DNA of 64,000 nucleotides, taken from NCBI RefSeq assembly GCF_009913235.1, contig NZ_CP047897.1, positions 3,533,001 to 3,597,000 of the forward strand. Direction: 5' to 3'. The notes under the pieces are model-generated. The model saw nothing but the letters and a program-made list of their open reading frames with translations. It searched no databases and was not told where the DNA came from. This stretch comes from Nibribacter ruber. Lineage in GTDB: Bacteria; Bacteroidota; Bacteroidia; Cytophagales; Hymenobacteraceae. This document shows, piece after piece, positions 2,681-63,417 of the stretch (position 1 is the stretch's first letter; every line of letters starts with the position of its first letter). Made by a program: the position numbers and the translations under genes.

Positions 2681-2718
2681 CGTTTTTGGCCTGTTTTAGG
2701 GAAAATTGGCTAAAAACG
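2681..2718. repeat. 38-bp palindrome, copy 1
   Basis: Arms CGTTTTTGGCCTGTTTT and AAAATTGGCTAAAAACG around loop AGGG. It abuts the T run of the dxs terminator. Confidence 0.85.
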
Positions 2719-2788
2719 TTTCATCACTTCTCATTCATGACTCATTTCTACCTGTAGCATCTTCTCTTCTGTTCGTCTTTTCTCCCCG

Positions 2789-2882
2789 TGTCATCCTGAA
2801 AGGATCTTGGTAGCGAGCTAAATAAGCGTTTGAATAAATGCCATTACAGCTTGCCCACAAGATCCTTCCAGGATAACAAAAG
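2789..2882. repeat. 94-bp inverted-repeat element, single copy here
   Basis: The left end (TCATCCTGAAAGGATCTTG, from about 2793) recurs as an imperfect reverse complement at the right end (CAAGATCCTTCCAGGATAA, from about 2860), with about 48 bp of unrelated sequence between. The rest of the dxs-to-3027 gap is two 38-bp palindromes and unremarkable sequence. The ends resemble dispersed palindromic repeats I associate with Hymenobacter-type genomes, but that is memory and was not checked. No coding capacity. Confidence 0.6.
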
Positions 2883-2958
2883 GGGGGAGCTAGAATGCCT
2901 TTACTAGTTTTGAAAGTGGTTTCAAAAGTCTTACTGGTTGCAGTCTAGGCGCTGCGTG

Positions 2959-2996
2959 CGTTTTTAGCCTGTTTCCAGCAAAACAAGCCAAAATCG
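2959..2996. repeat. 38-bp palindrome, copy 2
   Basis: Arms CGTTTTTAGCCTGTTTC and AAAACAAGCCAAAATCG, loop CAGC. It lies 30 bp upstream of the start of the next gene, so it probably overlaps that gene's promoter region. Confidence 0.8.
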
Positions 2997-3026
2997 GCGT
3001 CCAGAAAATATTTGTACCTTCACCCA

Positions 3027-3344
3027 ATGACTAGCCCAACACGACCAGAAGTCCTCACATTACCTTTACAAGAGAAGCTCATCATCATTGGTAAATCTCT
3101 GCTGTTGGTGCTGCTCATCTACACGGTCATTGATTTGTATGAGCCTATCAAGAAGGTGCTGGCTGGCGGAAGCGTCACGGGGGCAGAGGTGCTTTCCCAC
3201 ATAGAGGTGCTGGAGAAGTGGCCCATCGTGGCCATCATCACGCTGTTAATGGCCAATACCAGCATCAAGAAGAAGACCAAGGCGTTGCAAGAAGCGCAAC
3301 TTTCCTCCCCAGAAACAGCAGGGCAGGAGGTGGCTGGTAAATAA
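3027..3344 (+). CDS. Small two-helix membrane protein, function unknown
   Basis: The product is 105 residues. One hydrophobic segment lies around residues 15-36 (LIIIGKSLLLVLLIYTVIDLY) and a shorter one around 65-80 (WPIVAIITLLMANTSI). A lysine-rich turn and a polar tail follow. The ATG at 3027 is preferred to the in-frame TTG at 3012, which overlaps a likely -7 element (AATATTTG, 3007-3014). I do not recognise the family; the second helix ending in a basic KKKTK patch suggests a cytoplasmic C-terminus. Seven bases after the stop comes a 38-bp palindrome and then the hydrolase gene, so the two genes may be cotranscribed. Confidence 0.7.
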   Translation: MTSPTRPEVLTLPLQEKLIIIGKSLLLVLLIYTVIDLYEPIKKVLAGGSVTGAEVLSHIEVLEKWPIVAIITLLMANTSIKKKTKALQEAQLSSPETAGQEVAGK

Positions 3345-3351
3345 GTTTTTT

Positions 3352-3389
3352 CGTTTTTTGCGTGTTTCCCGTAAAACAGGTCAAAATCG
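3352..3389. repeat. 38-bp palindrome, copy 3
   Basis: Arms CGTTTTTTGCGTGTTTC and AAAACAGGTCAAAATCG, loop CCGT. It begins 7 nt after a stop codon and ends 9 nt before the hydrolase ATG at 3399, so it fills the whole intergenic space. Confidence 0.8.
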
Positions 3390-3398
3390 AAATTCCTT

Positions 3399-4214
3399 AT
3401 GACAACCCACTTACTTGCCCATACCCAAACCGGTACCGGTCCTACACTAGTTTTCTTGCACGGCTTCTGTGAAAGCAAAGACGTCTGGACCGATTTCGTG
3501 AAGCCGCTTTTGCATGAATTCCAAATCATTACGCTAGACCTGCCCGGCCACGGTGAAAGCCCGCTGCCTTCAGACTATTCCATGGAAGCGCAGGCACGTC
3601 AGGTGCAGGAAACCTTAAAAGCGCTGGGCGTAGAGAAGTGTCTGCTGGTGGGGCATTCCATGGGTGGTTATGTGAGTCTGGCCGTGGCCGAGCTGTTTCC
3701 AGAGCTATTGTACGGTTTGTGTCTGTTCCATTCCAGCGCGTTGGCAGACACTGAGGAGAAGAAAGACAACCGCAACAAAACCGTGGAGTTCATCCAGAAA
3801 CACGGCGTGGACAAGTTCATGGAGACGTTTGTAGGGCCCTTGTTCGCGGAGAGCAACCGAGTGTCCTGCCAGCCGGCCATTGAGAAGATGCAAGCCATTG
3901 GCAAAGCCACGCCGCAAGAAACCATCACGGGCTGTCTGCAGGCCATGCGCGACAGAAAAGACCGCACCGAAGTCCTCAAAACCACGTCCATTCCCGTCTT
4001 TTTCATGGCAGGCAAAGAAGACCCCGCCGTGCCGCTAGAAGCCACCTTGCAGCAATGCCATTTGCCTGAGAACAGCATGACCTACTTTCTGGGGCACGTG
4101 GGGCACATGGGCATGTTTGAAAATACGGCGCTCACCCGACAGGCTTTGCTCAAATTTGCAGAGACGCTCTCACCGGCCAACGCTCAGAAGTACAGAGCCA
4201 GCAACTCGTTTTAA
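3399..4214 (+). CDS. Alpha/beta-fold hydrolase
   Basis: A 271-residue single-domain hydrolase without a signal peptide, hence cytoplasmic. The oxyanion HG is in LVFLHGFCES near residue 20. The nucleophile elbow is GHSMGG with Ser87. The likely acid is the Asp of GKEDPAVPL near residue 208, and the base is one of the histidines in GHVGHMGMFE near residue 235. The TLDLPGHGES strand pattern is typical of the MhpC/BioH/MenH-like group. The substrate cannot be told from sequence. The neighbouring small membrane protein upstream and the DUF2231-like membrane protein downstream give no pathway hint. Confidence 0.9.
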   Translation: MTTHLLAHTQTGTGPTLVFLHGFCESKDVWTDFVKPLLHEFQIITLDLPGHGESPLPSDYSMEAQARQVQETLKALGVEKCLLVGHSMGGYVSLAVAELFPELLYGLCLFHSSALADTEEKKDNRNKTVEFIQKHGVDKFMETFVGPLFAESNRVSCQPAIEKMQAIGKATPQETITGCLQAMRDRKDRTEVLKTTSIPVFFMAGKEDPAVPLEATLQQCHLPENSMTYFLGHVGHMGMFENTALTRQALLKFAETLSPANAQKYRASNSF

Positions 4215-4331
4215 GCATAAGGGCCGGCAGCAGGTTTTGGAAAAGTAATAGGTGAAAAATATAGGAATCCCGCTATTTATTTGTAGAATTGGGTCCCCCC
4301 TCTCTCTTTCCTGTTTCTTTGCTGGTTTTGC

Positions 4332-4823
4332 ATGAATGACGCACACTACCATCTGCTGTTAAATCATATGCCTATTCTGGGCGCGCTGTTTGGCGTGCTG
4401 CTGTTAGGGTCGGGGTTTATAACGAAAAGCGTGTCGGTGCTCAAGGCCGGCATGACCACTATTTTAGTGGTGTCTGTCCTGACCATGCCCGCTTATTTTA
4501 CCGGCGAGGCCGCTGAGAAAGTGGTGGAGGATCTTCCGGGGGTACGCCATGATGACATTGCAGCCCACGAAGAAGCCGGTGAGCTAGGTCTTTGGGTAAT
4601 GGCCGCCGCCGGTAGTGCCGCTCTCATGGGGCTGCTCACCACGTCAAGCAACCACCGCCGCAGTGCCCGCTACAAGAAACCCAGAACCTGGGCAGTCATT
4701 ACCTTGCTGGTGTCCGTGGCAGCCTTTGGCATCATGGCCTGGGCAGGAGTGACGGGGGGCTTGATCAGGCACAGTGAGTTGCATGAAAACCCACCCGCTG
4801 CCGTAAACGCCGTGCCCAAGTAA
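4332..4823 (+). CDS. Four-helix membrane protein, DUF2231-like
   Basis: The product is 163 residues with four hydrophobic helices (about residues 14-32, 36-55, 86-106 and 120-141). It opens with a His-rich motif, NDAHYHLLLNHMPILGALFG, and has a conserved-looking loop FTGEAAEKVVEDLPGV followed by DIAAHEEAGELG. The histidine and acidic positions near the membrane faces resemble small DUF2231-type proteins sometimes proposed to bind haem, but I cannot show ligand binding. The start ATG is the first in frame. Copy 4 of the 38-bp palindrome, 27 nt after the stop, is probably its terminator. Confidence 0.75.
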   Translation: MNDAHYHLLLNHMPILGALFGVLLLGSGFITKSVSVLKAGMTTILVVSVLTMPAYFTGEAAEKVVEDLPGVRHDDIAAHEEAGELGLWVMAAAGSAALMGLLTTSSNHRRSARYKKPRTWAVITLLVSVAAFGIMAWAGVTGGLIRHSELHENPPAAVNAVPK

Positions 4824-4848
4824 CCTCTAGTATGTAGGACAATCTATA

Positions 4849-4897
4849 GCCGTTTTTGGCCTGTTTCCGGGAAAACAGGCCAAAAACGGCTTTTCTT
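4849..4897 (+). terminator. Terminator built on a 38-bp palindrome
   Basis: Copy 4 of the palindrome (4851-4888) is extended by flanking GC/GC pairs and followed by TTTTCTTTTA. The result is a stem of about 19 bp with a T-rich tail. Confidence 0.7.
4851..4888. repeat. 38-bp palindrome, copy 4
   Basis: Arms CGTTTTTGGCCTGTTTC and AAAACAGGCCAAAAACG, loop CGGG. Sixteen of 17 pairs match, making it one of the copies closest to consensus. Confidence 0.9.
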
Positions 4898-5000
4898 TTA
4901 GAAAGCGCTGGAGCAGATTTCGTTAACTGCCGGTTTTCCTCTATTTTCAAGCATCCTAACTCCACCTAACCAACAAAAGACAATCGTCTTCGCATAAGGC

Positions 5001-7934: not shown

Positions 7935-7947
7935 ATTTTGCATCAAC

Positions 7948-7985
7948 CGTTTTCGGGCTGATTCCCAGAAAACAGGCTAAAAACG
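7948..7985. repeat. 38-bp palindrome, copy 5
   Basis: Arms CGTTTTCGGGCTGATTC and AAAACAGGCTAAAAACG, loop CCAG. It starts 13 nt after a stop and runs directly into the next terminator stem. Confidence 0.85.
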
Positions 7986-8018
7986 AAGAAGGAGGCTGTC
8001 ATGGCCTCCTTCTTTTGT
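7986..8018. terminator. Bidirectional terminator between convergent genes
   Basis: An 11-bp GC-containing stem (7986-7996 with 8004-8014) is followed by TTTGTTTT on the plus side. On the minus side, A's precede it that become U's in the leftward transcript. It serves the propeller gene and the leftward response regulator. Confidence 0.8.
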
Positions 8019-8019
8019 T

Positions 8020-8424: not shown

Positions 8425-8815
8425 GGGTACTTGGGTTGTATGGCGGTCGCAAACCGTACGAATGTGCTGTAAAGATAGCGTCTTTCCTATATGGACGGCC
8501 TATCCTGGATGCTCCGTCTTATTTATAACGGGATTTGGCCAGCGGTGGTATCTGCAGGCCGCTTCGTTTAACAGGTACGTGTGCTCCCTTGGGAAAGTGA
8601 CAAATTTCCCTCAACTGGACTTCTTCGCATTAACGGTTTAAATATAGCCATAACGTGATATTTGCTTCGTTTTTGGCCTGATTTCCAGAAAACAGCCTAA
8701 AAACAAAATTATAGAAACAAAACCGGCGGCGGGCCTCTGTACATCCGTCAAAAACTGGTATCTTCCAGATTCAAAGCGTACTCTACTTTACCTTTAGCTT
8801 ACCGCATCTATTCAC
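8425..8815. other. 391-bp intergenic region between divergent genes
   Basis: It contains the possible leftward -7 box (8470-8477), copy 6 of the 38-bp palindrome, and probably the rightward promoter of the lipoprotein gene (TACCTTTA at about 8789). I see no convincing gene or RNA in it. Confidence 0.5.
8668..8705. repeat. 38-bp palindrome, copy 6
   Basis: Arms CGTTTTTGGCCTGATTT and AAAACAGCCTAAAAACA, loop CCAG. The terminal CG of the right arm has decayed to CA. It lies between divergent genes, far from any stop codon. Confidence 0.8.
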
Positions 8816-9820: not shown

Positions 9821-9842
9821 GCGCCGCTCTTGATTTAGGCAA

Positions 9843-9889
9843 GCCGATTTTGGCCTGTTTTCTGTAAAACAGTCCAAAATCGGCTTTCT
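9843..9889 (+). terminator. Terminator built on a 38-bp palindrome
   Basis: Copy 7 (9845-9882) is extended by GC/GC outside the arms and followed by TTTCTT. It begins 22 nt after the lipoprotein stop. Confidence 0.65.
9845..9882. repeat. 38-bp palindrome, copy 7
   Basis: Arms CGATTTTGGCCTGTTTT and AAAACAGTCCAAAATCG, loop CTGT. Positions 3 and 36 are changed together (A and T instead of T and A), so pairing is kept. Confidence 0.9.
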
Positions 9890-10379: not shown

Positions 10380-10387
10380 GGTAGATA

Positions 10388-11092: not shown

Positions 11093-11130
11093 CGTTTTTA
11101 GCCTCTTTTTCAGAAAACAGCCCAAAAACG
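11093..11130. repeat. 38-bp palindrome, copy 8
   Basis: Arms CGTTTTTAGCCTCTTTT and AAAACAGCCCAAAAACG, loop TCAG. It sits just before a perfect terminator palindrome in a convergent gap. Confidence 0.85.
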
Positions 11131-12260: not shown

Positions 12261-12298
12261 CGTTTTTGGCTTGTTTTCTGAGAATCAGGCAGAAAACG
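12261..12298. repeat. 38-bp palindrome, copy 9
   Basis: Arms CGTTTTTGGCTTGTTTT and GAATCAGGCAGAAAACG, loop CTGA. It lies between the divergent asd and the lamin-tail gene. Confidence 0.8.
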
Positions 12299-12356: not shown

Positions 12357-14921
12357 ATGCGGCAACTCTTTCTTTTGATATTGCTACTGTTTGCCCTCTG
12401 CGGTACCGCTAGCGCCCAGTTTTTAGAGACATTTGCAGACGGTGACTTTACACAGAATCCTGCCTGGACGGGAGATGTGGCTTCTTTTCAAGTGAACGCC
12501 GCCAAGCAATTGCAAAGCAAAGGCCCCGCCGTGACGGGCACCACCCTGCAACTCATGACACCCAATACGCTGGCCGTGGGCGCGCAATGGGAGTTCTACC
12601 TGCAACTGGCCTTCGCTACCTCCTCAGGCAACTACGCCGAGGTTCATCTCACCTCAGACAACCAAGACCTGAAAGGCGCGCACCAAGGCTATTTTGTGCG
12701 CATTGGCGGCACCGAGGATGAAGTGAGCCTCTACCGGAAAGATGGTGCCACGGCCGTTCGCATCATCAACGGTCCAGATAAAACCGTTGCCACTACCAAC
12801 AACCTGCTGCGCGTGCGCGTGACCAGAACTGAGGCCTCTGTCTGGAATCTGGAAGTAGACATGGGTGCTACCGGCCAGAACTTCGTGAGCCAGGGAACGG
12901 CCCAAGACGCCCGCTATCCCACGTCTGCCTTTACCGGCGTGCGGTTCACTTACAGCCAGGCCAACGCCCAGAAGTTCTTCTTCGATGATTTTCTTATCAA
13001 GGACATCAGCGCACCTGCCATCCTGGAAATGAAAGTGGCCGGCGCAAGGTCAGTAGAAATAAAATTCTCTGAGCCTATCACCGCGGCCTCGGCACAAAAT
13101 CTGCAGAACTATCTCTTGAACGGAGGGGTACAGCCCAACACTGTTGAATTAGTAGATCCAAGTACGCTCCGCTTGACGTTTGCATCAGACTTTGCTACTG
13201 GTACTAACCGCTTACAGATTGCAGAGATAAGAGACCTGCAAGGCAACACCGCCAGAAATCTGCAGACTACTTTTGACTACAGCCCCATCGCGCAATCCGG
13301 TGAGGTGCGTATTACCGAGATATATGCTGATTTGAACCCTTTGCAAGACTTACCTGCGGCAGAGTTCTTTGAGATTCATAACTTAAGCGATAAAACCTTT
13401 AACCTGCAGGGCTGGACATACTCAGACGCAACTACCAACTCGGCGAGCTTCCCAAGTTATCTCCTAAAGCCTGGGTCATATGTGATTGTCTGCGCCGCGG
13501 CAGACACGGCTTTGTACAAACCATTTGGCGAAGTGGTGGGATTACCCAGTTTTCCATCTTTGAATGACAGCGGGGATGAGGTAGAACTCTTCAATGTGCA
13601 AGGACAACTCATAGACAAGGTGGTTTATACAAACGCCTGGTACCGTGACACGCAAAAGAAGGAGGGAGGCTGGACTTTGGAACTGGTAGACGTAAACACC
13701 AGCTGTAAGGGAGCGGCCGCCTGGAAAGCCTCTGAAGACCCCAGAGGCGGAACTCCGGGAAAAGTAAACTCGGTGCAAGGGAAAGACGTGACCGCGCCAC
13801 AGCTAGTACAAGCAACTACCACCGCGCCAGACAAGGTAGTGCTCCGCTTTGATGAACCCCTAGACAGCCTGACCGCCTCTGTCCTATCGGTTTATCAAAT
13901 ATCGCCGGACGTGACCGTTACGCATGTGCGGGTGTTGCCTTCTTCTTTTGAGGTGGAGTTGACCTTGCAGGCTCCTTTGCGCGAAAACCTAAAATACACG
14001 GTTACGGCGCAGGGTGTGCAGGATTGTAGCGGGAACAGGGCCACTACTCAGCAGACGGCCTCTTTGGTGTTGCCGGCGGTGGCGCAGAAAGGAGACGTGG
14101 TCATCAATGAAATCTTGTTCAATCCCAGCACCGGCGGCGTAGATTTTGTGGAACTGGTCAACAGAACAAACAAATACCTGAATCTGCAGAACTGGCAACT
14201 GGCCAACCGCGAGAAAGGGGAACTGGGCACCATTAAAACCATCAGTACCCAGCCTTTGCTTCTGGCTCCGGGCGGTTATCTGGTTCTTACGTCAGATGCG
14301 AAGGTACTGAAAGAACAATACCCGAATAGCAAACCAGAAAGCTTCCTGCAACTGTCCTCTCTGCCCTCCTATAATGACGATGCTGGCAACGTGGTCTTGC
14401 TGCTGCCAGACAAAACCATCATGGATGAAGTGGCCTATAACGCAGCGTATCATTTCAAACTGATTAAGAACCCTGAAGGCATTTCTTTGGAGCGTCTTCA
14501 GTTAACGGGGCCTTCTACGGCGGCTAATTTCCATTCTGCGGCAACATACATAAAAGCTACACCGGGCTACCTGAATTCTCAATCGCAGACGGCCGCGCAG
14601 CTAAACCAGAAACTCACGCTCACGCCCAAGGTATTCACTCCGGACGGTGATGGCGTGGAAGATGTGCTGTTGCTGCATTTTCAGGGCGTGGCGCCAGGTA
14701 GCGTGGCTCATGTGACCGTGTATGATGCCTCCGGAAGGAAAGTTCGGACGCTGGCGGGAAACCAGCTGGCCGGGCAGGAGAATCTGGTGCAGTGGGACGG
14801 CCTCACCGATAAAGGAACCAAAGCCGCCGTGGGCTATTACATTGTGCTGGTAGAACTGTTCAACCTCAACGGCGACAAGGAAGTCCTGAAGGAAACGACG
14901 GTGGTGGGTGGTCGTTTTTAG
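12357..14921 (+). CDS. Secreted protein with two lamin-tail-like domains and a FlgD/CHU-type C-terminus
   Basis: The product is 854 residues. The signal peptide is MRQLFLLILLLFALCGTASAQ. A concanavalin-like N-terminal region spans roughly residues 22-220. Ig-like segments follow (SAPAILEMKVAGARSVEIKFSEPI and its later partner DVTAPQLVQATTTAPDKVVLRFDEPL). Two lamin-tail-type domains open with VRITEIYADLNP and VVINEILFNPSTGG and contain FFEIHNLSDKTFNLQGWTYS-like cores. The C-terminus, FTPDGDGVEDVLLLHFQ... VTVYDASGRKVRTL, is a FlgD-like/gliding-type Ig fold, often seen on type IX-exported or surface proteins. Probably extracellular and adhesive or structural. The last two codons and the stop lie inside a 38-bp palindrome. 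Confidence 0.85.
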   Translation: MRQLFLLILLLFALCGTASAQFLETFADGDFTQNPAWTGDVASFQVNAAKQLQSKGPAVTGTTLQLMTPNTLAVGAQWEFYLQLAFATSSGNYAEVHLTSDNQDLKGAHQGYFVRIGGTEDEVSLYRKDGATAVRIINGPDKTVATTNNLLRVRVTRTEASVWNLEVDMGATGQNFVSQGTAQDARYPTSAFTGVRFTYSQANAQKFFFDDFLIKDISAPAILEMKVAGARSVEIKFSEPITAASAQNLQNYLLNGGVQPNTVELVDPSTLRLTFASDFATGTNRLQIAEIRDLQGNTARNLQTTFDYSPIAQSGEVRITEIYADLNPLQDLPAAEFFEIHNLSDKTFNLQGWTYSDATTNSASFPSYLLKPGSYVIVCAAADTALYKPFGEVVGLPSFPSLNDSGDEVELFNVQGQLIDKVVYTNAWYRDTQKKEGGWTLELVDVNTSCKGAAAWKASEDPRGGTPGKVNSVQGKDVTAPQLVQATTTAPDKVVLRFDEPLDSLTASVLSVYQISPDVTVTHVRVLPSSFEVELTLQAPLRENLKYTVTAQGVQDCSGNRATTQQTASLVLPAVAQKGDVVINEILFNPSTGGVDFVELVNRTNKYLNLQNWQLANREKGELGTIKTISTQPLLLAPGGYLVLTSDAKVLKEQYPNSKPESFLQLSSLPSYNDDAGNVVLLLPDKTIMDEVAYNAAYHFKLIKNPEGISLERLQLTGPSTAANFHSAATYIKATPGYLNSQSQTAAQLNQKLTLTPKVFTPDGDGVEDVLLLHFQGVAPGSVAHVTVYDASGRKVRTLAGNQLAGQENLVQWDGLTDKGTKAAVGYYIVLVELFNLNGDKEVLKETTVVGGRF

Positions 14922-14950
14922 GCTATTTTCCAGAAAACAAGCCAAAAACG
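14913..14950. repeat. 38-bp palindrome, copy 10, supplying a stop codon
   Basis: Arms CGTTTTTAGGCTATTTT and AAAACAAGCCAAAAACG, loop CCAG. The first nine bases, read as CGT TTT TAG, are the last two codons and the stop of the lamin-tail gene. Confidence 0.9.
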
Positions 14951-15802: not shown

Positions 15803-15840
15803 CGATTTTAGCCTATTTTTCAGGAATTACGCCAAAACTA
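15803..15840. repeat. 38-bp palindrome, copy 11 (degenerate)
   Basis: Left arm CGATTTTAGCCTATTTT is recognisable. Right arm GAATTACGCCAAAACTA has lost its terminal CG. Loop TCAG. It starts 1 nt after the transporter's stop codon and is the most decayed copy in the window. Confidence 0.6.
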
Positions 15841-17081: not shown

Positions 17082-17119
17082 CGTTTTTAGCCTGTTTTCC
17101 AGAAAATAAGCCAAAAACG
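17082..17119. repeat. 38-bp palindrome, copy 12
   Basis: Arms CGTTTTTAGCCTGTTTT and AAAATAAGCCAAAAACG, loop CCAG. It begins 7 nt after a stop codon and precedes a separate GC-rich terminator. Confidence 0.85.
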
Positions 17120-27025: not shown

Positions 27026-27028
27026 TGT

Positions 27029-27066
27029 CGTTTTTGACCTATTTCCCACAAAACAGCCTAAAAATG
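27029..27066. repeat. 38-bp palindrome, copy 13, probably supplying a start codon
   Basis: Arms CGTTTTTGACCTATTTC and AAAACAGCCTAAAAATG, loop CCAC. It starts 3 nt after the amidase stop. The usual terminal ACG reads ATG, which is the likely start codon of the S9 peptidase. Confidence 0.85.
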
Positions 27067-29445: not shown

Positions 29446-29488
29446 AAACGAGAAGACCAGACAGTCCCTGTCTGGTCTTCTCGTTTTT
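29444..29488 (+). terminator. Strong terminator overlapping a 38-bp palindrome
   Basis: A perfect 20-bp stem (29444-29463 with 29469-29488; core CGAGAAGACCAGACA) with a 5-nt loop. The terminal TTTTT run is the first T run of palindrome copy 14, so the two structures share sequence. Confidence 0.92.
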
Positions 29489-29519
29489 GGGCTGTTTTCC
29501 AGAAAATAGGCCAAAAACG
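29482..29519. repeat. 38-bp palindrome, copy 14
   Basis: Arms CGTTTTTGGGCTGTTTT and AAAATAGGCCAAAAACG, loop CCAG. Its left seven bases overlap the preceding terminator. It lies between convergent genes, 19 nt from the PAP2 gene's stop. Confidence 0.9.
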
Positions 29520-30445: not shown

Positions 30446-30483
30446 CGTTTTTGGCTTGTTTTCCAGAAAAGAGGCCAAAAACG
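30446..30483. repeat. 38-bp palindrome, copy 15
   Basis: Arms CGTTTTTGGCTTGTTTT and AAAAGAGGCCAAAAACG, loop CCAG. It lies between the divergent PAP2 and metK genes, about 140 bp upstream of metK. Confidence 0.9.
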
Positions 30484-31935: not shown

Positions 31936-31973
31936 CGTTTTTAGCCTGTTTTAATGAAAAGAGCCCCAAAACG
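31936..31973. repeat. 38-bp palindrome, copy 16
   Basis: Arms CGTTTTTAGCCTGTTTT and AAAAGAGCCCCAAAACG, loop AATG. It begins 4 nt after the metK stop. The right arm has changed so that it forms a second hairpin with downstream bases, the metK/hpf terminator. Confidence 0.85.
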
Positions 31974-42950: not shown

Positions 42951-42968
42951 CACCCGGTTTTGGCGCAG

Positions 42969-43715: not shown

Positions 43716-43753
43716 CGTTTTTGGCGTATTTTCTGGAAAACAGGCCAAAAACG
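43716..43753. repeat. 38-bp palindrome, copy 17
   Basis: Arms CGTTTTTGGCGTATTTT and AAAACAGGCCAAAAACG, loop CTGG (the reverse complement of the common loop, so an inverted copy). It begins 9 nt after the aroE stop and is followed by GCTTTTATTTT, so it may terminate the operon. Confidence 0.9.
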
Positions 43754-44491: not shown

Positions 44492-46151
44492 GGAGAATAA
44501 GCAAAGCCGCCGCGTAGAAGACGTCTTCCGGGAGGGGTTTGACGACGCGCAAGTGCCCCCACCGTCGCGGCTATGGGACAACCTGGACCAGGCCCTGGAA
44601 AACCAGGAACTGCGCCGTTACCGCAAGCAGGCCTTTTGGTACCGCTCTGTGGCGGCTGCCTGCTTGTTGCTGTTATTCATGACGGGAGTGTTTTTATGGC
44701 AGCAAGACCAACTGCCTTTCTGGACCGGCTCTCCTGAAGGGCAGCTGGCCAAGGAGTCTTCCCCTGCTAACCAGCAAACAGAAAATGCCACGGCGGCACC
44801 AAAAACAGATTCTTCTCAAAGAATGGCGGCATCCACCAACCAAGATGCGTCCATTTTTAGCTCAATTCCTGAAAAACAAGCCAAAAACGACCGAGGTAAC
44901 CCTGCACAGACCAGAACCTCAGAGTTAATGGCGTCTGCTGATAGAAGCACTGCCACTAAGACAAATTCAATAACAAGCTCTGCCTCACGGTTCATTGCCG
45001 CCAATAGAAGAAACTCTGCTGGTAAGGAAAAATCTGCCGCTTCCGCTAATTTGCCTGAAGAAAACACGCCGACCCTGGCCATTTCTGCTCCAACGCAAAG
45101 CGGTTCCCAAGTTTCCGAGGTCGGCACCATATCTCTATCAGGAGAATCTTCCAGGGTTTCTGGGAGAACAGTTATTAGTGAAAACGCAATGGCTGTTTCT
45201 AGTCGGGTTGCGGCTGCTAGCACCAATGGCCTAGCCTCAGACTCCTTGCTCAACAGCAGAGTAGCCACCGTTCTTTATCAAGACAGCCAGGATAAAGTAA
45301 TGATGGCCAAAGCAGAAGCAGAGCCGTCGCCAACCGTGCTTCCAGAGAAGACTTCCTCCCTGAAAGGTTGGAATGTATCTCTGGCGTACACGCCAATGTA
45401 TGCTTATGCGCCCATTGCCGTTGGTGATGCGCCCAACCATGATGGCATGAAAATGTCTGATGAGCAACAGCAAATGTACAAGCAGTATGCCCAGGCGCTT
45501 CAGGAGTATAAAGACAGCTATACACCGGCCTATTCATTCACCGCAAAACTAGCCGCTGGCTTTCAGTTGAACGACCATTGGCAGATAGAGTCTGGCGTGT
45601 TGTATGCTCAGAACGAGGCTACCACCAGTCATTCATTCCTAATCACCAAGAACAACGGCATGATGCGCGTCAACTCCCTGGTGCCCGTGGTGAACAAGCC
45701 AGAACCTATTGTCAAGGCGGCTTTTGAACCAGAACTCGCCAACAACCTGGAGGCCGTTACTCCAACGGAGCAATACCGCACAAGGTACAAATACAAGCAG
45801 GTGGGCCTGCCGTTGCGGCTCTCTTACCGCAAGAGCATCAGCAGGGTGTTCGCGTTTGTGTCTGGCGGGGTTAACCTGCATTTGCTTTTGCAGAACAGCA
45901 TAGAGTCTGAGAACCCAGAGGTGCAGGCCAAGCGCTATAGGTATGATGACCAGACCTCACCCTTCAGGGCCTGGCAATGGGCGGCCGTAACGGCGGCAGG
46001 CCTCGGATACCAACTGAACCAGAAGATGAGCATCACAGTGGCCCCAGAACTTACCTATTCCTTTTCGTCTGCGTTAAAGGAAAGTCAGACGCAGGCAGAT
46101 CCTTACCAGGTAGGGGTGAGCATAGGGGGTAAATACCGCCTTTCTAAATAA
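44472..46151 (+). CDS. Membrane-anchored putative anti-sigma protein with a C-terminal barrel-like domain
   Basis: The product is 559 residues. Residues 1-55 are soluble and charged (VEDVFREGFDDAQVPPPSRLWDNLDQALE). One membrane helix follows at about 62-78 (SVAAACLLLLFMTGVFLW). A long Ser/Thr/Ala-rich linker spans about 80-290. The C-terminus (about 300-559) has outer-membrane-barrel-like strands (WNVSLAYTPMYAYAPI, FTAKLAAGFQLNDHWQIESGVLYAQNEA, RYKYKQVGLPLRLSYRKS, GVSIGGKYRLSK). The overlap with the sigma gene suggests an anti-sigma role for the N-terminus. A 38-bp palindrome lies in frame in the linker (residues 127-140). Confidence 0.75.
   Translation: MKESSAEENKQSRRVEDVFREGFDDAQVPPPSRLWDNLDQALENQELRRYRKQAFWYRSVAAACLLLLFMTGVFLWQQDQLPFWTGSPEGQLAKESSPANQQTENATAAPKTDSSQRMAASTNQDASIFSSIPEKQAKNDRGNPAQTRTSELMASADRSTATKTNSITSSASRFIAANRRNSAGKEKSAASANLPEENTPTLAISAPTQSGSQVSEVGTISLSGESSRVSGRTVISENAMAVSSRVAAASTNGLASDSLLNSRVATVLYQDSQDKVMMAKAEAEPSPTVLPEKTSSLKGWNVSLAYTPMYAYAPIAVGDAPNHDGMKMSDEQQQMYKQYAQALQEYKDSYTPAYSFTAKLAAGFQLNDHWQIESGVLYAQNEATTSHSFLITKNNGMMRVNSLVPVVNKPEPIVKAAFEPELANNLEAVTPTEQYRTRYKYKQVGLPLRLSYRKSISRVFAFVSGGVNLHLLLQNSIESENPEVQAKRYRYDDQTSPFRAWQWAAVTAAGLGYQLNQKMSITVAPELTYSFSSALKESQTQADPYQVGVSIGGKYRLSK
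44852..44889. repeat. 38-bp palindrome, copy 18, inside a coding sequence
   Basis: Arms CATTTTTAGCTCAATTC and AAAACAAGCCAAAAACG around loop CTGA; one arm's CG has become CA. It is read in frame as IFSSIPEKQAKN plus edge codons, in the low-complexity linker of the putative anti-sigma protein. The left-arm TAG is out of frame. Confidence 0.8.
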
Positions 46152-49099: not shown

Positions 49100-49158
49100 G
49101 CAGAAGCCGTTTTTGGCCTGTTTTTACCAAAACAAGCTAAAAACGGCTTCTGCTTTTT
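49100..49158 (+). terminator. uvrB terminator built around a 38-bp palindrome
   Basis: Palindrome copy 19 is extended outward by eight gene-specific pairs (GCAGAAGC with GCTTCTGC), followed by TTTTT. The total stem is about 25 bp. This is the clearest case of a palindrome serving as a terminator. Confidence 0.9.
49108..49145. repeat. 38-bp palindrome, copy 19
   Basis: Arms CGTTTTTGGCCTGTTTT and AAAACAAGCTAAAAACG, loop TACC. It lies 23 nt after the uvrB stop. Confidence 0.9.
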
Positions 49159-49273
49159 AAAAGATTTCTGATAGGATAGGGGAGAAAGGAGAGAAGCCGG
49201 TCATTGTGTTAGAAGGCAGCTGAATGCTTTTGCTTAGACGTTGCCTGACAATACTGCTCTACTACCTAAACCC

Positions 49274-50268: not shown

Positions 50269-50306
50269 CGTTTTTAGCCTGTTTTCCAGAAACTAGCCCA
50301 AAAACG
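50269..50306. repeat. 38-bp palindrome, copy 20
   Basis: Arms CGTTTTTAGCCTGTTTT and AAACTAGCCCAAAAACG, loop CCAG. It begins 2 nt after a stop codon and abuts the next terminator. Confidence 0.85.
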
Positions 50307-54391: not shown

Positions 54392-54429
54392 CGTTTTTGG
54401 CCTGTTTCTGGGAAAACAGGTTAAAAACG
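54392..54429. repeat. 38-bp palindrome, copy 21
   Basis: Arms CGTTTTTGGCCTGTTTC and AAAACAGGTTAAAAACG, loop TGGG. It lies between divergent genes. Confidence 0.85.
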
Positions 54430-55036: not shown

Positions 55037-55074
55037 CGTTTTCGGCCTTTTTTCCGGAAAACAGACCAAAAACG
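55037..55074. repeat. 38-bp palindrome, copy 22, filling a convergent gap
   Basis: Arms CGTTTTCGGCCTTTTTT and AAAACAGACCAAAAACG, loop CCGG. It starts 3 nt after one stop codon and ends 1 nt before the opposing stop codon, so the intergenic region is the element. Confidence 0.9.
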
Positions 55075-57357: not shown

Positions 57358-57395
57358 CGTTTTTGGCCTCTTTCCTTGAAAAGAGGCCAAAAACG
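57358..57395. repeat. 38-bp palindrome, copy 23
   Basis: Arms CGTTTTTGGCCTCTTTC and AAAAGAGGCCAAAAACG, loop CTTG. Positions 13 and 26 are exchanged together (C and G instead of G and C), preserving the pair. Confidence 0.9.
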
Positions 57396-57490: not shown

Positions 57491-57532
57491 CCCGTTTTTG
57501 GCCTGATTCCTGAGAAATAAGCCAAAAACGGG
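57491..57532 (-). terminator. Terminator built on a 38-bp palindrome, leftward
   Basis: Copy 24 is extended by CC/GG outside each arm, and on the minus strand is followed by a T-rich TTTCTTGTTTTC. It lies 25 nt after the stop of the His/Met-rich protein gene. Confidence 0.65.
57493..57530. repeat. 38-bp palindrome, copy 24
   Basis: Arms CGTTTTTGGCCTGATTC and GAAATAAGCCAAAAACG, loop CTGA. It lies 97 bp from copy 23, the closest pair in the window. Confidence 0.9.
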
Positions 57533-57556
57533 TTCCTGTATTTATGATACTTTTAC

Positions 57557-59302: not shown

Positions 59303-59814
59303 AAAAGCAGTGAATTAGGTGAGGGACGTACTGCTACAAAGAAAACGGATGCCTGCGCCTATTGTTTAACAGCATTCGGTAAGACTTGTGCATAATTCAA
59401 TGAAGCAGGATGTCCGTTTTTAGGCTAATTCCCAGGAAATAGGCCAAAAACGCACCTAGAACCAGCAGGGCACAAGGGACATTGCTGCTGGCTGGGCATC
59501 GCCAAAAAGAACAATCGTCTAACTGGTATCCACTGCGGTTGCGCCGTAAGCAGGGGTATAGGGTTTCAGGGCAGGCGGTTTATTTATCAGGAAGTTTCCC
59601 GCTCTGTGTTCAACGTTTCACCTGTTGATGCGCAAAAAATGGGCTTCTTTCAACTAGGAGAACAGCAAGAACCGAACGGAAACTTTGGTCTGGCAAAAAT
59701 CTGGTTCGCTGAAAACACGTTACAAGAAAATATAGGTCACGCCAGGCAGGGCAAAGAAAGCCGCCGAGCGTTAGTCAGAAGACCCATCTGTCCATAAACA
59801 CAAGACCCCGTACC
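59303..59814. other. 512-bp intergenic region between divergent genes
   Basis: It contains copy 25 of the 38-bp palindrome at 59415. A 63-codon frame with a GTG start at 59606 has no recognisable content and was not accepted. I see no clear TAnnTTTG promoter and no RNA gene. Confidence 0.5.
59415..59452. repeat. 38-bp palindrome, copy 25
   Basis: Arms CGTTTTTAGGCTAATTC and GAAATAGGCCAAAAACG, loop CCAG. It lies between divergent genes, 113 bp from the nearer start codon. Confidence 0.85.
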
Positions 59815-62469
59815 ATGGAATTTTATCAGCAGCCCGTTTCAAACGTCTTACAAGACCTAAACACGTCTACCCAAGGACTTTCTGGGGCAGAGGTGCAGCA
59901 ACGGATAGAAACCCACGGGTACAATGAGCTGAAAGAGGCAGAGCGGGACCCCGTATGGAAACTGATTCTGGAGACCTTCAAAGACCCCATGGTCATTGTG
60001 CTTCTGCTGGCGGCCTTGGTGCAATTGGCCTTGGGCGAAGTCATGGAAGCCGTCATCATCTTCGCGGTGCTGGTGCTCAATGCGGTGGTGGGCGTGGTGC
60101 AGACCAAAAAGGCCGAAGGAGCCTTGGATGCGCTCCGCCAAATGTCGGCGCCGTCTGCCAAAGTCTTGCGTGATGGCGTCAGGCAAACCTTGGCCGCCCG
60201 GGAACTGGTCCCCGGAGACGTGGTAGCCCTGGAAGCCGGCGACTACGTGGCCGCCGACGGACGCGTGCTGGAAAGCAGTTCGCTGCGGGTAAATGAAGGC
60301 ATGCTCACCGGCGAGTCTGAACCCGTGGAAAAACACACAGACCCCATCTCAGAAGAATCTGCCCTGGGAGATCGCAAGAACATGGTCTACAGCGGCGCGC
60401 TGGTGGTGTATGGCCGGGGGCGCTTTGTAGTGACGGCCACCGCTGAGAAGACAGAGATTGGCAAGATTGCCGGTCTGCTGGCCTCGGCGGAGGCCAAACA
60501 AACGCCGCTCCAACGCAAGCTGGCAACCTTTAGTAAGCGGCTGGGCTGGGTGATTCTGGCCTTGTGCGTGCTCATCTTCGGGGTAGAGGCGTTCAGGGTC
60601 TGGAGCGGAACGCATACGGGAGACATGACCGGGGCGCTGCTCAAGGCATTTATGTTTGCCGTGGCTGTGGCCGTGGCTGCCATTCCAGAGGCGCTCTCCT
60701 CCATTGTGACCATCGTGCTGGCCGTGGGCACCCACCAGATGGCCCGCCGGCACGCCATCATCCGGAAGCTGCCCGCCGTGGAGACCTTGGGTTCTACCAG
60801 CGTCATCTGCACAGACAAGACGGGCACGCTCACCCAGAACAAAATGACCGTGGTAGACTCTTACGTGCCCGGCCGTACACAGGAACAGTTTGCCCAAGCG
60901 CCAGACCAATGGTCAGAGGCAGAGCGGTGGCTCATGCAGGTGGCCGTACTGTGCAACGATGCCCACATCAACAAGGACGGCGCTGAGCTAGGCGACCCTA
61001 CCGAGGTGGCCCTGATTGCCTACAGCAATGAGAAGCAACTGCCCTACACCCACATAAGAAACCAATTCCCCCGTGAGGCCGAGCTGCCGTTTGACTCAGA
61101 CCGCAAACTCATGTCTACCGTGCACACCATGGGCGGGCAGCGCGTGTTGTTGACCAAGGGCGGGCCAGACGTGGTCTTGTCACGGTGCCGCCGCGTGCTG
61201 GTAGACGGCCAGGAAAAACCAGCCACGCCAGAACTGTTGGAAGGAATACGGGCGCAGATTGAGGAGTTCTCTGATAGAGCGCTGCGGGTGCTGGCCTTCG
61301 CCTATAAACCGCTGGCTCCCTCTGGTGCCCTCACCTTTGAAGAAGAGCAGGACCTGGTGTTGGTAGGCCTCAAAGCCATGATTGACCCGCCGCGCGAAGA
61401 AGTGTATGCCTCCATTGAAGAGTCCCGCAAGGCAGGCATTAAAACCGTCATGATCACCGGCGACCATAAAACCACCGCCCAGGCCATTGCCCGCCAGATT
61501 GGCCTCATGCAAGAACAGGACATTGCGCTCACCGGTCAGGAACTGGATGATCTTTCTGAGGAAGAACTGCACCAGAAACTGGAACAGGTTTCTGTGTATG
61601 CGCGGGTCTCCCCCGAAAACAAGATACGCATTGTGCGCGCTTGGCAGCAGAAAGGGAAAGTGACGGCCATGACCGGCGACGGCGTGAACGATGCTCCCGC
61701 CCTTAAGCAAGCCGACATTGGCGTGGCCATGGGCAGCGGCACTGATGTGGCCAAGGATGCATCGGCTATGATTCTGACGGATGACAACTTTGTCTCCATT
61801 GTGAACGCCGTGGCCGTGGGGCGCACCGTGTTTGACAACATCAAGAAAGCCATTGCCTATCTGTTTGCCGGAAACCTGGGAGCCATCATTGCTATTCTGT
61901 TCGCGCTGGCCCTGGACTGGGTCAATCCGTTCAATCCCATTCAACTGCTGTTTATCAACCTCCTGAATGACTCTCTGCCGGCCATTGCCCTGGGCATGGA
62001 AAAGGCCGAGCCCAACGTGATGCTGCGCAAACCCCGTGACATCAATGAGGGGATTTTTGCCGGCGGAATGATGAAGTCTGTGATTGCCCGCGGGGTCTTG
62101 ATTGGTGCGGCGGTGATTGTGTCGCAGTGGCTGGGTCTGCAACAATCCCCTGAGATGAGCATTGCCATGGCCTTCACCACCTTGATTCTGGCTAGAACGC
62201 TCCAAACCTTTGCTGCCCGTTCCAATACCCAGACGGCCATTGGCGCCGGTTTCTTTGAAAACAAATACGTACTGGGCGCGGTGTTGCTGTGCTTTGGGCT
62301 GTATGGGTTGACGGTGCTGCCAGGCGTGCGCGAAATCTTCTCCATTCCGGCAGACTTCGGGTGGGAGGAATGGCAGAAAGCCGCCGGTCTGGCCGTGGTC
62401 GCCGTCGCCCTTATGGAACTCTGGAAACTCACGCCCTGGGCTTCTGAGAAGAGGCAGCTGGTAAAGTAA
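59815..62469 (+). CDS. P2-type cation-transporting ATPase (calcium-type)
   Basis: The product is 884 residues. The cation-ATPase N-terminal domain begins QQPVSNVLQDLNTSTQGLSGAEVQQRIETHGYNEL. The actuator-domain loop is MLTGESEPVEKH. The phosphorylated Asp334 is in ICTDKTGTLTQNKM. The hinge motif is MTGDGVNDAPALKQADIGVAMG. Membrane helix 4 has AIPEALSSIVTIVLAVG (PEAL where SERCA has PEGL). Helix 5 and 6 sequences (NPIQLLFINLLNDSLPAIALGMEKAEP) fit a P2A Ca2+ or Mn2+ pump of the inner membrane, though substrate specificity is not proved. It stands alone, without metal-binding HMA domains. Confidence 0.93.
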   Translation: MEFYQQPVSNVLQDLNTSTQGLSGAEVQQRIETHGYNELKEAERDPVWKLILETFKDPMVIVLLLAALVQLALGEVMEAVIIFAVLVLNAVVGVVQTKKAEGALDALRQMSAPSAKVLRDGVRQTLAARELVPGDVVALEAGDYVAADGRVLESSSLRVNEGMLTGESEPVEKHTDPISEESALGDRKNMVYSGALVVYGRGRFVVTATAEKTEIGKIAGLLASAEAKQTPLQRKLATFSKRLGWVILALCVLIFGVEAFRVWSGTHTGDMTGALLKAFMFAVAVAVAAIPEALSSIVTIVLAVGTHQMARRHAIIRKLPAVETLGSTSVICTDKTGTLTQNKMTVVDSYVPGRTQEQFAQAPDQWSEAERWLMQVAVLCNDAHINKDGAELGDPTEVALIAYSNEKQLPYTHIRNQFPREAELPFDSDRKLMSTVHTMGGQRVLLTKGGPDVVLSRCRRVLVDGQEKPATPELLEGIRAQIEEFSDRALRVLAFAYKPLAPSGALTFEEEQDLVLVGLKAMIDPPREEVYASIEESRKAGIKTVMITGDHKTTAQAIARQIGLMQEQDIALTGQELDDLSEEELHQKLEQVSVYARVSPENKIRIVRAWQQKGKVTAMTGDGVNDAPALKQADIGVAMGSGTDVAKDASAMILTDDNFVSIVNAVAVGRTVFDNIKKAIAYLFAGNLGAIIAILFALALDWVNPFNPIQLLFINLLNDSLPAIALGMEKAEPNVMLRKPRDINEGIFAGGMMKSVIARGVLIGAAVIVSQWLGLQQSPEMSIAMAFTTLILARTLQTFAARSNTQTAIGAGFFENKYVLGAVLLCFGLYGLTVLPGVREIFSIPADFGWEEWQKAAGLAVVAVALMELWKLTPWASEKRQLVK

Positions 62470-62582
62470 AAATCGGCCCGTAATCAGAACTTTGTGAGGC
62501 TGATTCTGATGCTTGGCGGCCATTTGTTATCCAATGCTGGAGTTTGCCAACGCCTGGGCTCTTCGCTTGTAAGGCCACGCTT

Positions 62583-62620
62583 CGTTTTTGGGCTGTTTTC
62601 TGAAAAATAGCCCAAAAACG
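62583..62620. repeat. 38-bp palindrome, copy 26
   Basis: Arms CGTTTTTGGGCTGTTTT and AAAATAGCCCAAAAACG, loop CTGA. Positions 10 and 29 are exchanged together (G and C), and position 26 gives a G-U wobble, so pairing is complete at the RNA level apart from the loop. Confidence 0.92.
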
Positions 62621-62631
62621 TAGAGAACCTG

Positions 62632-62639
62632 TAGCTTTG
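62632..62639 (+). promoter_or_regulatory. -7 element of the YciI gene
   Basis: TAGCTTTG, 22 nt before the ATG and 11 nt after palindrome copy 26. The palindrome would occupy the -33 region, and no TTTG is seen there. Confidence 0.5.
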
Positions 62640-62661
62640 CTCCTCCACAAAAGATAGACGT

Positions 62662-62952
62662 ATGTTTTTGATTGAACTCACCTATAAAGTGCCTTTCACT
62701 GAAGTGGACCCATTCATGTCTGAGCACATGGCGTTTCTGGAGAAGCACTATGCAAAGGGAACCTTCCTGGCTTCGGGACGCAAGGTTCCACGTGACGGCG
62801 GCCTCATTTTTTGCCAGGCTGGCAGCAAGGCAGACGTAGAAGAACTCATGCAGGAAGACCCATTTGTGTACCAGGACCTGGCAGACCTGCGAGTGATAGA
62901 GTTCACCGCCTCCCGCGCCGAAGAAGGGTTGAAAGGTCTTTTGCCATCATAG
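62662..62952 (+). CDS. YciI-family protein
   Basis: The product is 96 residues, a ferredoxin-like alpha/beta fold. The family pattern is visible in FLIELTYKVPFTEVDPFMSEHMAFLEKHYAKGTFLASGRKVPRDGGLIFCQAGSKADVEELMQEDPFVYQDLADLRVIEF. The conserved histidine (SEHMAFL) and the DPF motif are present. Members include muconolactone-isomerase-like and dye-decolourising relatives, but the cellular function is unknown. Monocistronic, with a strong terminator at 63072. Confidence 0.9.
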   Translation: MFLIELTYKVPFTEVDPFMSEHMAFLEKHYAKGTFLASGRKVPRDGGLIFCQAGSKADVEELMQEDPFVYQDLADLRVIEFTASRAEEGLKGLLPS

Positions 62953-63071
62953 GGAATCTCCCAGCCGTGAGCGAGTACAACCTCTGATTGCGTCTGTTTG
63001 CTGAGGATGGGCGCGATAGAATTTTCAGGAAAAGAAGCACGACTTCCATCCCATTTTTAAAGAGATTATAA

Positions 63072-63111
63072 AACCAGAGAGGCCGCCTGTAAACAGGCGG
63101 CCTCTCTGGTT
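63072..63111. terminator. Bidirectional terminator between convergent genes
   Basis: A perfect 19-bp stem (63072-63090 with 63093-63111; core AGAGAGGCCGCCTGT) with a 2-nt loop. It serves the YciI gene and the leftward HMA gene. Confidence 0.9.
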
Positions 63112-63132
63112 GAACGAATTAAAAAATACTGT

Positions 63133-63345
63133 TTAGTCTTCTATCGTCTCCGCAGAATAACCTGCAGATTCCACGGCCAGAATCACGGCGTCTGACGTGG
63201 CATCGCCTTCTATGGTGAGAACCTTGTCTGGCGAGTTGGTGTCTACCTCCCATTTGTAAATACCGGGCGTCTTGTCCAAAATGGGAGTGACGGTGCTAAT
63301 ACAGCCACCGCATTTAATATTGGTCTTGAATTTCTTAGTACTCAT
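63133..63345 (-). CDS. Heavy-metal-associated (HMA) domain protein, CopZ-like chaperone
   Basis: The product is 70 residues, one ferredoxin-like HMA domain. The metal-binding motif is CGGC in TNIKCGGCISTVTPIL (Cys12 and Cys15), in the position of the GMxCxxC loop of copper chaperones. The C-terminal part, VLAVESAGYSAETI, matches the GY loop near the metal site. It probably hands Cu(I) to the CopA-type ATPase encoded next to it, from which it is separated by a palindrome and about 118 bp. Leftward. Confidence 0.92.
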   Translation of the reverse strand: MSTKKFKTNIKCGGCISTVTPILDKTPGIYKWEVDTNSPDKVLTIEGDATSDAVILAVESAGYSAETIED

Positions 63346-63379
63346 CTTTTTTTAATTAGGAATTAGGTTTTCAATTAAC

Positions 63380-63417
63380 CGTTTTTGCCCTCTTTTACAG
63401 AAAACAAGCCAAAAACG
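63380..63417. repeat. 38-bp palindrome, copy 27
   Basis: Arms CGTTTTTGCCCTCTTTT and AAAACAAGCCAAAAACG, loop ACAG. It lies between the ATPase and HMA genes, 46 nt from the ATPase stop. Confidence 0.85.

Follow-up and report, generated by a model that had tools for sequence, protein, structure and literature searches.

Genus-Wide 38-bp Dyads between Rufibacter Genes as Candidate Boundary Sites of a Putative DNA-Binding Protein

Rufibacter genomes, 16 of 16, carry a family of mostly intergenic 38-bp dyads at a density of about one site per 2 to 3 kb. We tentatively favor reading these sites as chromosome-wide boundary sites of a putative genus-specific DNA-binding protein, acting as a dimer or a dimer of dimers, a reading that is drawn from sequence comparison and could well prove wrong. 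With slightly more reserve, we suggest that they may form a chromosome-wide address code, with a single 38-bp dyad marking the majority of the longer gaps between genes. One or more switches of specificity would have occurred in this code, including that of the inner subsite from GT to C(A/G) in the line of genome G013. Selection, or a drive independent of type IV pili, would have rewritten probably more than 1,000 sites, many of them without a change of position.

RESULTS

The window, that is, the whole stretch of 64,000 nucleotides of Nibribacter ruber (genome G000) analyzed here, holds 27 palindromes at the starts listed by the first-pass annotation, all 27 of them 38 bp long. A symmetric weight matrix, derived from these same 27 sites, recognizes exactly 27 places in the window with scores of 34.9 to 61.5, compared with -3.7 for the next-best place and -0.2 for the best of 10 shuffled windows, which bears out the view that the family is not a product of chance. 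The matrix or its refinement also found new sites, at equal density, in the remaining 200 kb of a region of 264 kb and in 20 additional stretches. Outside the sites, the window has no lone half-site of 12 bits or more, the closest two reaching 11.1 and 11.6. The earlier description of the motif needs some loosening. The ends CG(T/A)TTTT and AAAA(A/T)CG are strict on both sides in only 19 of 27 copies, the others deviating, and the GGCC ascribed to every arm is replaced in some by AGCC or GGGC, among others; the CCAG center does occur in 8 copies. The right arm is the reverse complement of the left at the level of the consensus, but single copies pair in 85.0% of stem cells (G-U counted), compared with 85.3% when arms are shuffled among the 27 sites.

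Many of the sites, none of which is assigned a strand, follow open reading frames (ORFs). Those at 2681..2718 (59 bp after the dxs ORF, 687-2621), 4851..4888 (27 bp after ORF 4332-4823), 7948..7985 (13 bp after ORF 5001-7934), 9845..9882 (24 bp after ORF 8816-9820), 17082..17119 (7 bp after ORF 15956-17074), 31936..31973 (4 bp after the metK ORF, 30627-31931), 43716..43753 (9 bp after ORF 42960-43706), 50269..50306 (2 bp after ORF 49241-50266), and 62583..62620 (113 bp after the P-type ATPase ORF, 59815-62469) are of this kind. The lowest-scoring copy (15803..15840) begins one base past the TauE ORF (15043-15801), while that at 14913..14950, a position common to genomes G007 and G013, covers the last 9 bases of ORF 12357-14921, including its stop codon TAG. 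The site at 27029..27066 lies past a stop ending at 27025 and overlaps the beginning of the ORF called next (27025-29445), and 61 bp separate that at 11093..11130 from the 3' end of the semialdehyde dehydrogenase ORF on the minus strand (11192-12181). At 49108..49145, 23 bp after uvrB, the site has an ortholog in G007 and its flanks lengthen the palindrome, ending in a T-run; the 16 uvrB loci were compared by inspection only, in alignments that mix strands because 6 of the 16 kept their original orientation. Divergent gaps hold the sites at 8668..8705, 12261..12298 (one base different from its G007 ortholog), 30446..30483, and 59415..59452, and convergent gaps hold those at 29482..29519, the top scorer (61.5), and 55037..55074. 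Two sites, 57358..57395 and 57493..57530, share one gap; another, 3352..3389, precedes an alpha/beta hydrolase ORF (3399-4214), and 44852..44889 falls within predicted ORF 44472-46151. The sites at 2959..2996, 54392..54429, and 63380..63417 are further matrix matches. The two stretches reported as lacking sites (17.2 to 27.0 kb and 32 to 43.7 kb) indeed have none. No RAYT gene was noticed within the window.

The exact pattern occurs 1,092 times in G000, and sampling (261 sites in 664 kb) gives a total of about 1,700 for its 4.35 Mb, in line with the earlier extrapolation of about 2,000 for a 5-Mb genome. Copy numbers rest on whole-genome counts for G000 and, with up to 2 mismatches, for G001, and on strict patterns or density for the other genomes. 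The family thus retains its described traits of fixed length, mostly intergenic position, and well over a thousand copies. It also still lacks a named description in the literature searched, and the window gave no Rfam match at gathering scores. Within the Hymenobacteraceae, the family marks one genus, and 92 of 94 genomes from other genera have no sites. As a control for the loose dialects, the same procedure was applied to three Rufibacter genomes of this kind, which gave 15 to 20 sites in 60 kb, and to seven stretches from other genera, which gave 0 to 3. Viral contigs, in a set that may lack records close to the window, gave 0 matches to the strict pattern, and a 20-kb low-GC stretch with defense-type genes and an rve integrase has zero sites.

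Each site consists of two 19-bp half-sites arranged as a dyad, with conservation peaks that lie 11 bp apart. In the mean of 16 species, conservation is highest at half-site positions 4-5 and 15-16 (1.7 to 1.8 bits) and lowest at position 7 (0.4 bits) and positions 18-19 (0.4 and 0.1). The same pattern appears in 45 ungapped ortholog pairs of G000 and G007, a comparison that left out 27 gapped, shifted, or one-sided entries: sites differ by 16% and flanks by 36%, and positions 4-6 and 15-16 differ in 0 to 3%. In G009 and G015 the T-tracts are still conserved, though about half of the sites fold more weakly than -5 kcal/mol.

Between genes, 50 to 64% of gaps of 100 to 400 bp contain a site and two are seldom found together. 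Gaps with 0, 1, and 2 or more sites number 28, 42, and 0 in G007 (39.8, 21.2, and 9.0 at random) and 35, 50, and 6 in G000 (47.9, 29.1, and 14.1 at random). Two-site gaps were rarer than under this random model, which takes no account of promoters, in four of five species tested, the shortage in G013 not being significant (P 0.0855). Among 127 co-directional sites, 78 start within 60 bp after the upstream stop and 27 end within 60 bp before the next start, while divergent gaps hold 32 of the 261 sampled G000 sites.

Site positions are also shared between species. Two sites were called co-located when a G000 site and its counterpart lay within 12 bp (or 3 bp) of the same gene end, and chance was set by permuting pairings within gaps occupied in both genomes. 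Sharing with G000 exceeds these permutations for G007, G006, G013, and G004, most weakly for G004. Within 12 bp, co-location reaches 52 of 62 in G007 (18.9 expected), 21 of 40 in G013 (9.8), and 16 of 36 in G004 (10.2), and within 3 bp, 44 (8.6), 14 (4.2), and 11 (3.1), respectively. At 12 bp, chance could account for roughly half of the co-locations with G013 and for a larger share of those with G004. The spelling of the sites differs between species: in G013, 103 of 120 arms read C(A/G) at positions 13-14, a form seen in none of 220 arms in G000 and none of 96 in G006. Where G000 and G013 sites are co-located, both arms are switched in 9 of 14 (within 3 bp) or 16 of 21 (within 12 bp). Such pairs are alike at 24.8 of 34 positions, against 24.0 +/- 0.2 for random pairs, and match their own-species consensus at 30.0 and 29.3. 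In the proposed comparison of orthologous gaps, no clean presence/absence pair emerged between G000 and G007. That search found no clean 38-bp insertion and no target duplication, and several one-sided sites lie in larger indels or unclear alignments.

The two arms behave differently among species. They are independent in G000, where 3,494 of 4,437 stem cells are paired across 261 sites versus 3,522.6 +/- 14.2 after shuffling, and RNA folding energy is -12.46 for real sites versus -12.57 with halves swapped between sites. This independence in the window's genome points to recognition of double-stranded DNA. We rejected a genus-wide absence of covariation, which appears in G013 (position 7, 108 of 186 versus 72.5), in G001, in the loose-dialect species, and in the G000/G007 orthologs. 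In G001, among the pattern-selected matches listed, pairing reaches 42 of 66 at position 7 (17.3 expected) and 51 of 66 at position 10 (33.2); G000 under the same selection shows none (1,500 versus 1,502.6). The 12 loose-dialect species pooled give a z of 4.8 (G010, 5.0; G005, 3.6; G012, 2.8), and identical both-arm changes number 17 in the G000/G007 orthologs, one of them from a doubtful pairing, versus 6.6 expected. Folding is stronger for real sites than after half-swapping in G005 (-13.6 and -10.3), G001 (-12.7 and -10.7), G010 (-8.8 and -7.1), and G009 (-6.4 and -4.9), and by a smaller margin in other species, a comparison made without a significance test. The symmetric arm changes and the stronger folding in these species count against the protein reading. 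In G000, flanks extend the palindrome by at least 5 bp at 8.3% of sites versus 0.5% of shuffled ones. The sense strand carries CA rather than TG at the center in 59 of 79 co-directional sites of G000, 37 of 66 in G013, and 13 of 22 in G007. The G000 bias counts against a symmetric site, which would not predict it; by eye, center orientation had no clear relation to replichore in the G000 sample.

DISCUSSION

A putative protein reading double-stranded DNA from one face of the helix could account for this architecture. Its half-site would contain two T-tracts spaced by one helical turn (11 bp), and two half-sites in inverted order would bring four contact points into phase within exactly 38 bp. 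Its role would probably be architectural or that of a boundary (looping, the handling of supercoils or forks, or the separation of neighboring units) rather than gene regulation, since over half of the longer gaps have a single site, usually just past a stop codon. If the preference of the protein shifted in a lineage, the sites would follow, many in place, giving rise to species dialects. Sites wrapped by IHF/HU-type proteins have footprints of about 35 bp, and the Rufibacter sites resemble them in length and in phased A/T tracts around a dyad. No HU-type site is known to be as specific or as abundant. No binding protein was found, which counts against the reading: an HU-family factor was considered and provisionally set aside, since each genus genome, like those of relatives, has one strong HU match. 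G005, G007, and G013 have weak second matches, an extra HU-HIG-type match being confined to G013; no HU paralog present in the whole genus yet absent outside it was found.

An unlikely alternative is that the sites are REP-like palindromes that a RAYT/Y1 single-strand transposase dispersed and that have since become mostly immobile, the dialects being successive waves. The sites are indeed intergenic imperfect palindromes of REP size (20 to 40 bp) in high copy, as are REP, BIME, and REPIN elements, and the symmetric covariation in G001, G005, and G010 would fit recent birth as perfect palindromes. The first-pass annotation saw no RAYT to explain their spread, but a search of the genome with the Y1 transposase family (PF01797, which includes RAYT and IS200 types) gave three matches, RAYT-like in size and motifs, and such matches occur in 15 of 16 genus genomes. 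Many of the proteins examined are about 181 amino acids long with NHLH and YIHQNP-type motifs, resembling RAYT subclass 2.6, which one study describes as mostly from Bacteroidetes, with atypical structures on its flanks that also occur at other places in the genome (PMC6006769). L144, one such gene in G000, lies between near-consensus sites, one 39 bp upstream and the other 120 bp downstream. The suggested search for a linked RAYT gene gave no general association, however: sites within 300 bp on both sides flank 5 of 23 Y1-family loci, about as often as control genes (40 of 218 in G000, 18 of 112 in G013, 20 of 97 in G004, and 11 of 116 in G006), the loci having been scanned under a less strict score cut-off than the control genes, that of G001 with the G008 matrix, and some lacking catalytic motifs. 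Y1-family genes do not explain the sites, because G007 has no match at E 0.001 despite similar site density, other genera have matches and no sites, and flanking is at background. REP elements are described as carrying, at one end, a GTAG or CGTC tag that stays unpaired (PMC3733652), and this tag is absent from flank and end composition in five species. The sites are also little clustered, unlike REPIN or BIME dimers, and those of G000 keep sequence contacts rather than stem pairing. Finally, a freely spreading repeat is weakened by positions shared above chance and by the depletion of two-site gaps, and no clean filled/empty pair was found.

It seems less probable still that the sites are uptake-type self-DNA tags, which biased uptake and recombination would maintain and shift together. 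The analogy is with DUS (Neisseriaceae) and USS (Pasteurellaceae), whose published descriptions (PMC3630211, PMC1626085) the Rufibacter sites resemble in density, permissive intergenic location, absence from one probably acquired island, dialects, and long positional stability. The likeness extends to about 1,000 or more copies, restriction to a taxon, and stable positions with changing spelling. ComEC is present in 15 of 15 genus genomes searched, yet it is no mark of the genus, occurring in all 21 genomes searched across seven genera. The Neisseria-type pilus route seems missing, as no PF00437 pilus or secretion ATPase exceeds the cut-off in 15 genus genomes, 8 of which have weak subthreshold matches. 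DUS and USS motifs are 9 to 12 bp long, and DUS also occur as single copies; the Rufibacter sites are 38-bp dyads, seldom two per gap, and in the window no lone half-site exceeds 12 bits. Most doubtful of the three is a hairpin at mRNA 3' ends, serving as terminator or 3'-end stabilizer. It would accommodate the bias toward upstream stops, the flank extension and CA center in G000, and the covariation and better folding in several species, and sites resemble intrinsic terminators in lying past stop codons and in a minority of flanks that extend to a stem with a T-run. Canonical terminators overlap only 7 of 110 G000 sites, however; they share convergent site-bearing gaps in 9 of 17 cases in G000 and 12 of 15 in G007, and their density in G000 (25.0 per 100 kb) lies within the 5.0 to 37.1 of six other-genus stretches. 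The independent arms of G000, its sites in divergent gaps, and the weak folding in G009 and G015 also speak against hairpins. A canonical intrinsic terminator was rejected, the stem not being kept by paired changes in G000 and ordinary terminators being present alongside the sites at the density of relatives.

Returning to a protein-bound boundary site, selection on about 1,700 sites would be a heavy load, which makes drive a serious rival. If drive is at work instead, uptake-like or repeat-homogenizing behavior would extend to a genus in which no pilus ATPase was found. If a protein binds, the sites would constitute a boundary-placed chromosome code of a kind not found described for Bacteroidota in the literature searched. 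Rufibacter would then be a natural experiment in which a DNA-binding specificity and over a thousand of its sites change together, a problem that arises both for uptake sequences and for nucleoid proteins.

Abundance and taxonomic range

All 27 sites that the first-pass annotation had claimed at a fixed 38 bp were recovered in the window at that length, and a symmetric matrix built from them picked out exactly 27 places, followed by a wide score gap, with no lone half-site above 12 bits in the window. That the family is not a product of chance was borne out, as ten shuffled windows gave nothing comparable under this matrix. The claimed end motifs fared less well, their strict form being present in 19 of the 27 sites and absent from the rest. 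Many window sites lie directly 3' of stop codons and some in divergent gaps. The site at 44852-44889 is the only one of the 27 within a predicted ORF, which comes after an ECF sigma factor gene and has a predicted outer-membrane beta-barrel domain.

The window's genome (G000, a single contig of 4,352,178 bases) holds 1,092 exact matches to CGWTTTTN7TTN6AAN7AAAAWCG and its congener G007 holds 642; each of the 14 remaining same-genus genomes holds 2-67, the 43 other-genus genomes searched hold none, and the reversed control pattern gave 0 matches. The predicted figure of about 2000 copies in a 5-Mb genome was right in scale, with sampling giving about 1,700 for this genome (261 sites in 664 kb). 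With a relaxed pattern, exact copies numbered 3-997 per genome across the 16 genomes of the genus; of 94 family genomes outside the genus, 92 had no copy and the remaining two carried 1 and 2. These only extra-genus matches, at G485:C1:2171238 (L184), G507:C36:22779 (L183) and G507:C48:16253, come from two genomes of one other genus and reflect either transfer or chance. All eight strict-consensus matches among named stretches belong to Rufibacter (immobilis, ruber, sediminis and strain XAAS-G3-1); this is the genus bearing the sites. Species-fitted matrices, run on stretches from 15 genus genomes, gave a density of one site per 1.6-2.9 kb, even in genomes with few strict-pattern matches, and the same procedure gave 0-3 hits on seven other-genus stretches. 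G001, a congener outside those 15 and added later from 40 kb, has 20 sites there; allowing up to two mismatches, it has 1,675 matches. A search of mainly open-access literature found no account of this repeat family in Rufibacter or elsewhere in Hymenobacteraceae.

No 38-bp site occurs in the 20 kb of G000:C1:2640001-2660000 (L134; 42.5% GC), where the gene content comprises DarT, a macro-domain, an ABC-3C component, an rve integrase and a STAND-like NTPase (below cut-off); this stretch is probably an acquired defence island. In another genus, a terminator-like palindrome around AAACGCTATACTTTT...AAAAGTATAGCGTTT recurs in G016 (L057-L059), with about four copies in 54 kb.

Placement and conservation

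By a simple longest-ORF gene call, the 261 G000 sites fall in co-directional (127), convergent (67) and divergent (32) gaps and within ORF calls (27), with 8 unassigned. In co-directional gaps, the distance from the upstream stop to the start of the site is at most 60 bp in 78/127, and that from the end of the site to the following gene start is at most 60 bp in 27/127. Between 50 and 64% of 100-400 bp gaps hold a site in five species (G000, 56/91; G007, 42/70; G006, 21/42; G013, 28/48; G004, 27/42). Two-site gaps are fewer than random in G000, G007, G006 and G004, and the shortage is not significant in G013 (P 0.0855). Canonical terminators are distinct from the sites, occur at ordinary density and are overlapped by 7 of 110 G000 sites; flanks lengthen the palindrome by at least 5 bp in 8.3% of G000 sites versus 0.5% of shuffled ones.

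The orthologous-gap comparison suggested at first pass showed shared gaps co-occupied with G000 above chance in G007 (51/111; 25.3 expected), G006 (25/67; 13.8), G013 (27/61; 17.3) and G004 (25/56; 17.7). Where both species' gaps are occupied, we compared the distances of their sites from the same gene end. Co-location within 12 bp reached 52 in G007 (18.9 expected), 19 in G006 (12.2), 21 in G013 (9.8) and 16 in G004 (10.2), and within 3 bp, 44 (8.6), 15 (5.5), 14 (4.2) and 11 (3.1), respectively. Site positions are therefore conserved between species, although the looser co-locations are partly chance. Across 45 ungapped G000/G007 ortholog pairs (27 gapped, shifted or one-sided entries being left out), divergence is 16% in the site versus 36% in the flanks, and positions 4-6 and 15-16 are near-invariant.

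Site anatomy and dialects

The fitted half-site reads CGTTTTTgGccTgTTTtcy in G000 and cGTTTTyGGgcTCaTTTcy in G013. The 16-species average of information content is highest at half-site positions 4-5 and 15-16, which lie one helical turn from each other, and reaches its minima at 7 and 18-19. The G000 centre is CA/TG in 157 of 261 sites versus symmetric CG/TA in 33, with 47 matched centres observed versus 90.7 expected. In co-directional G000 sites, the sense strand carries CA rather than TG at centre positions 19-20 in 59/79, a bias not significant in G013 (37/66) or G007 (13/22).

C(A/G) occupies positions 13-14 in 103/120 arms of G013 versus 0/220 in G000, 0/156 in G007 and 0/96 in G006. G000 and G013 share 14 site positions to within 3 bp; both arms are switched at 9 of these (23/28 arms), and at 16/21 of those shared to within 12 bp. 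Co-located sites are scarcely more alike than random pairs, each being close to its own species' consensus. Since the inner consensus is GT in all 15 other species and an unrooted uvrB tree pairs G013 with G006 (support 0.867) and joins them to G000/G007 (0.995), a single change on the G013 branch is the simplest reading. Uptake sequences undergo the same kind of dialect change.

Possible duplex recognition, hairpins and candidate factors

A hairpin role is the alternative to recognition of the duplex. In G000, the arms vary independently (3,494 paired stem cells versus 3,522.6 +/- 14.2 shuffled; 261 sites), as they do in the 27 window sites on their own, and RNA folding energy is unchanged when halves are swapped between sites. 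In the loosest dialects, G009 and G015, about half of the sites have folding energies weaker than -5 kcal/mol, with T-tracts still kept. Several data count against arm independence and the duplex reading: a pairing excess in 12 pooled loose-dialect species (515 sites; z 4.8, mostly positions 1, 7 and 8), seen also in G010, G005 and G012 singly; arm symmetry in G001 (strong, at positions 7 and 10, among the matches listed) and G013 (position 7); apparently stronger folding of native sites than of versions with swapped halves in G005, G001, G010 and G009; and 17 identical both-arm changes between G000/G007 orthologs versus 6.6 expected, a number reached in 0 of 2,000 permutations. We read the arm data as duplex recognition on which a palindrome-copying or birth effect may be superposed, but the sites may also have a hairpin role.

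Among the families searched (Y1 transposase, pilus/secretion ATPase, ComEC, HU and HU-HIG), no binding factor for the sites was identified. The proposed check for a linked RAYT gene found Y1-family matches in 15/16 genus genomes, and the linkage itself did not stand out, sites flanking both sides within 300 bp at 5/23 Y1 loci versus 9-21% of control genes. Moreover, Y1 matches occur in other genera that have no sites, and G007 has no match though it carries sites. At L144:4134-4920, one RAYT-like gene of G000 has near-consensus sites 39 bp and 120 bp away, one per side, the highest-scoring flanking pair among the 23 loci; a G013-dialect-like site (L142:5348) lies 279 bp downstream of another such gene. 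Concerning uptake, ComEC is present in 15/15 genus genomes, and no pilus/secretion ATPase exceeded the cut-off in the same 15. HU gives one strong match per genus genome, as in relatives. A strong HU-HIG match (PF18291; 142-aa frame, E 6.5e-25) at G013:C1:1936694-1937047 on the minus strand is limited to G013 among 35 genomes, the others matching through ordinary HU or weakly; its occurrence in the dialect-switched species is a notable coincidence.

The site family is real, very abundant, genus-bound and constrained. Its members are most like a duplex recognition sequence, placed at gene boundaries, for a putative protein whose existence and purpose we infer.
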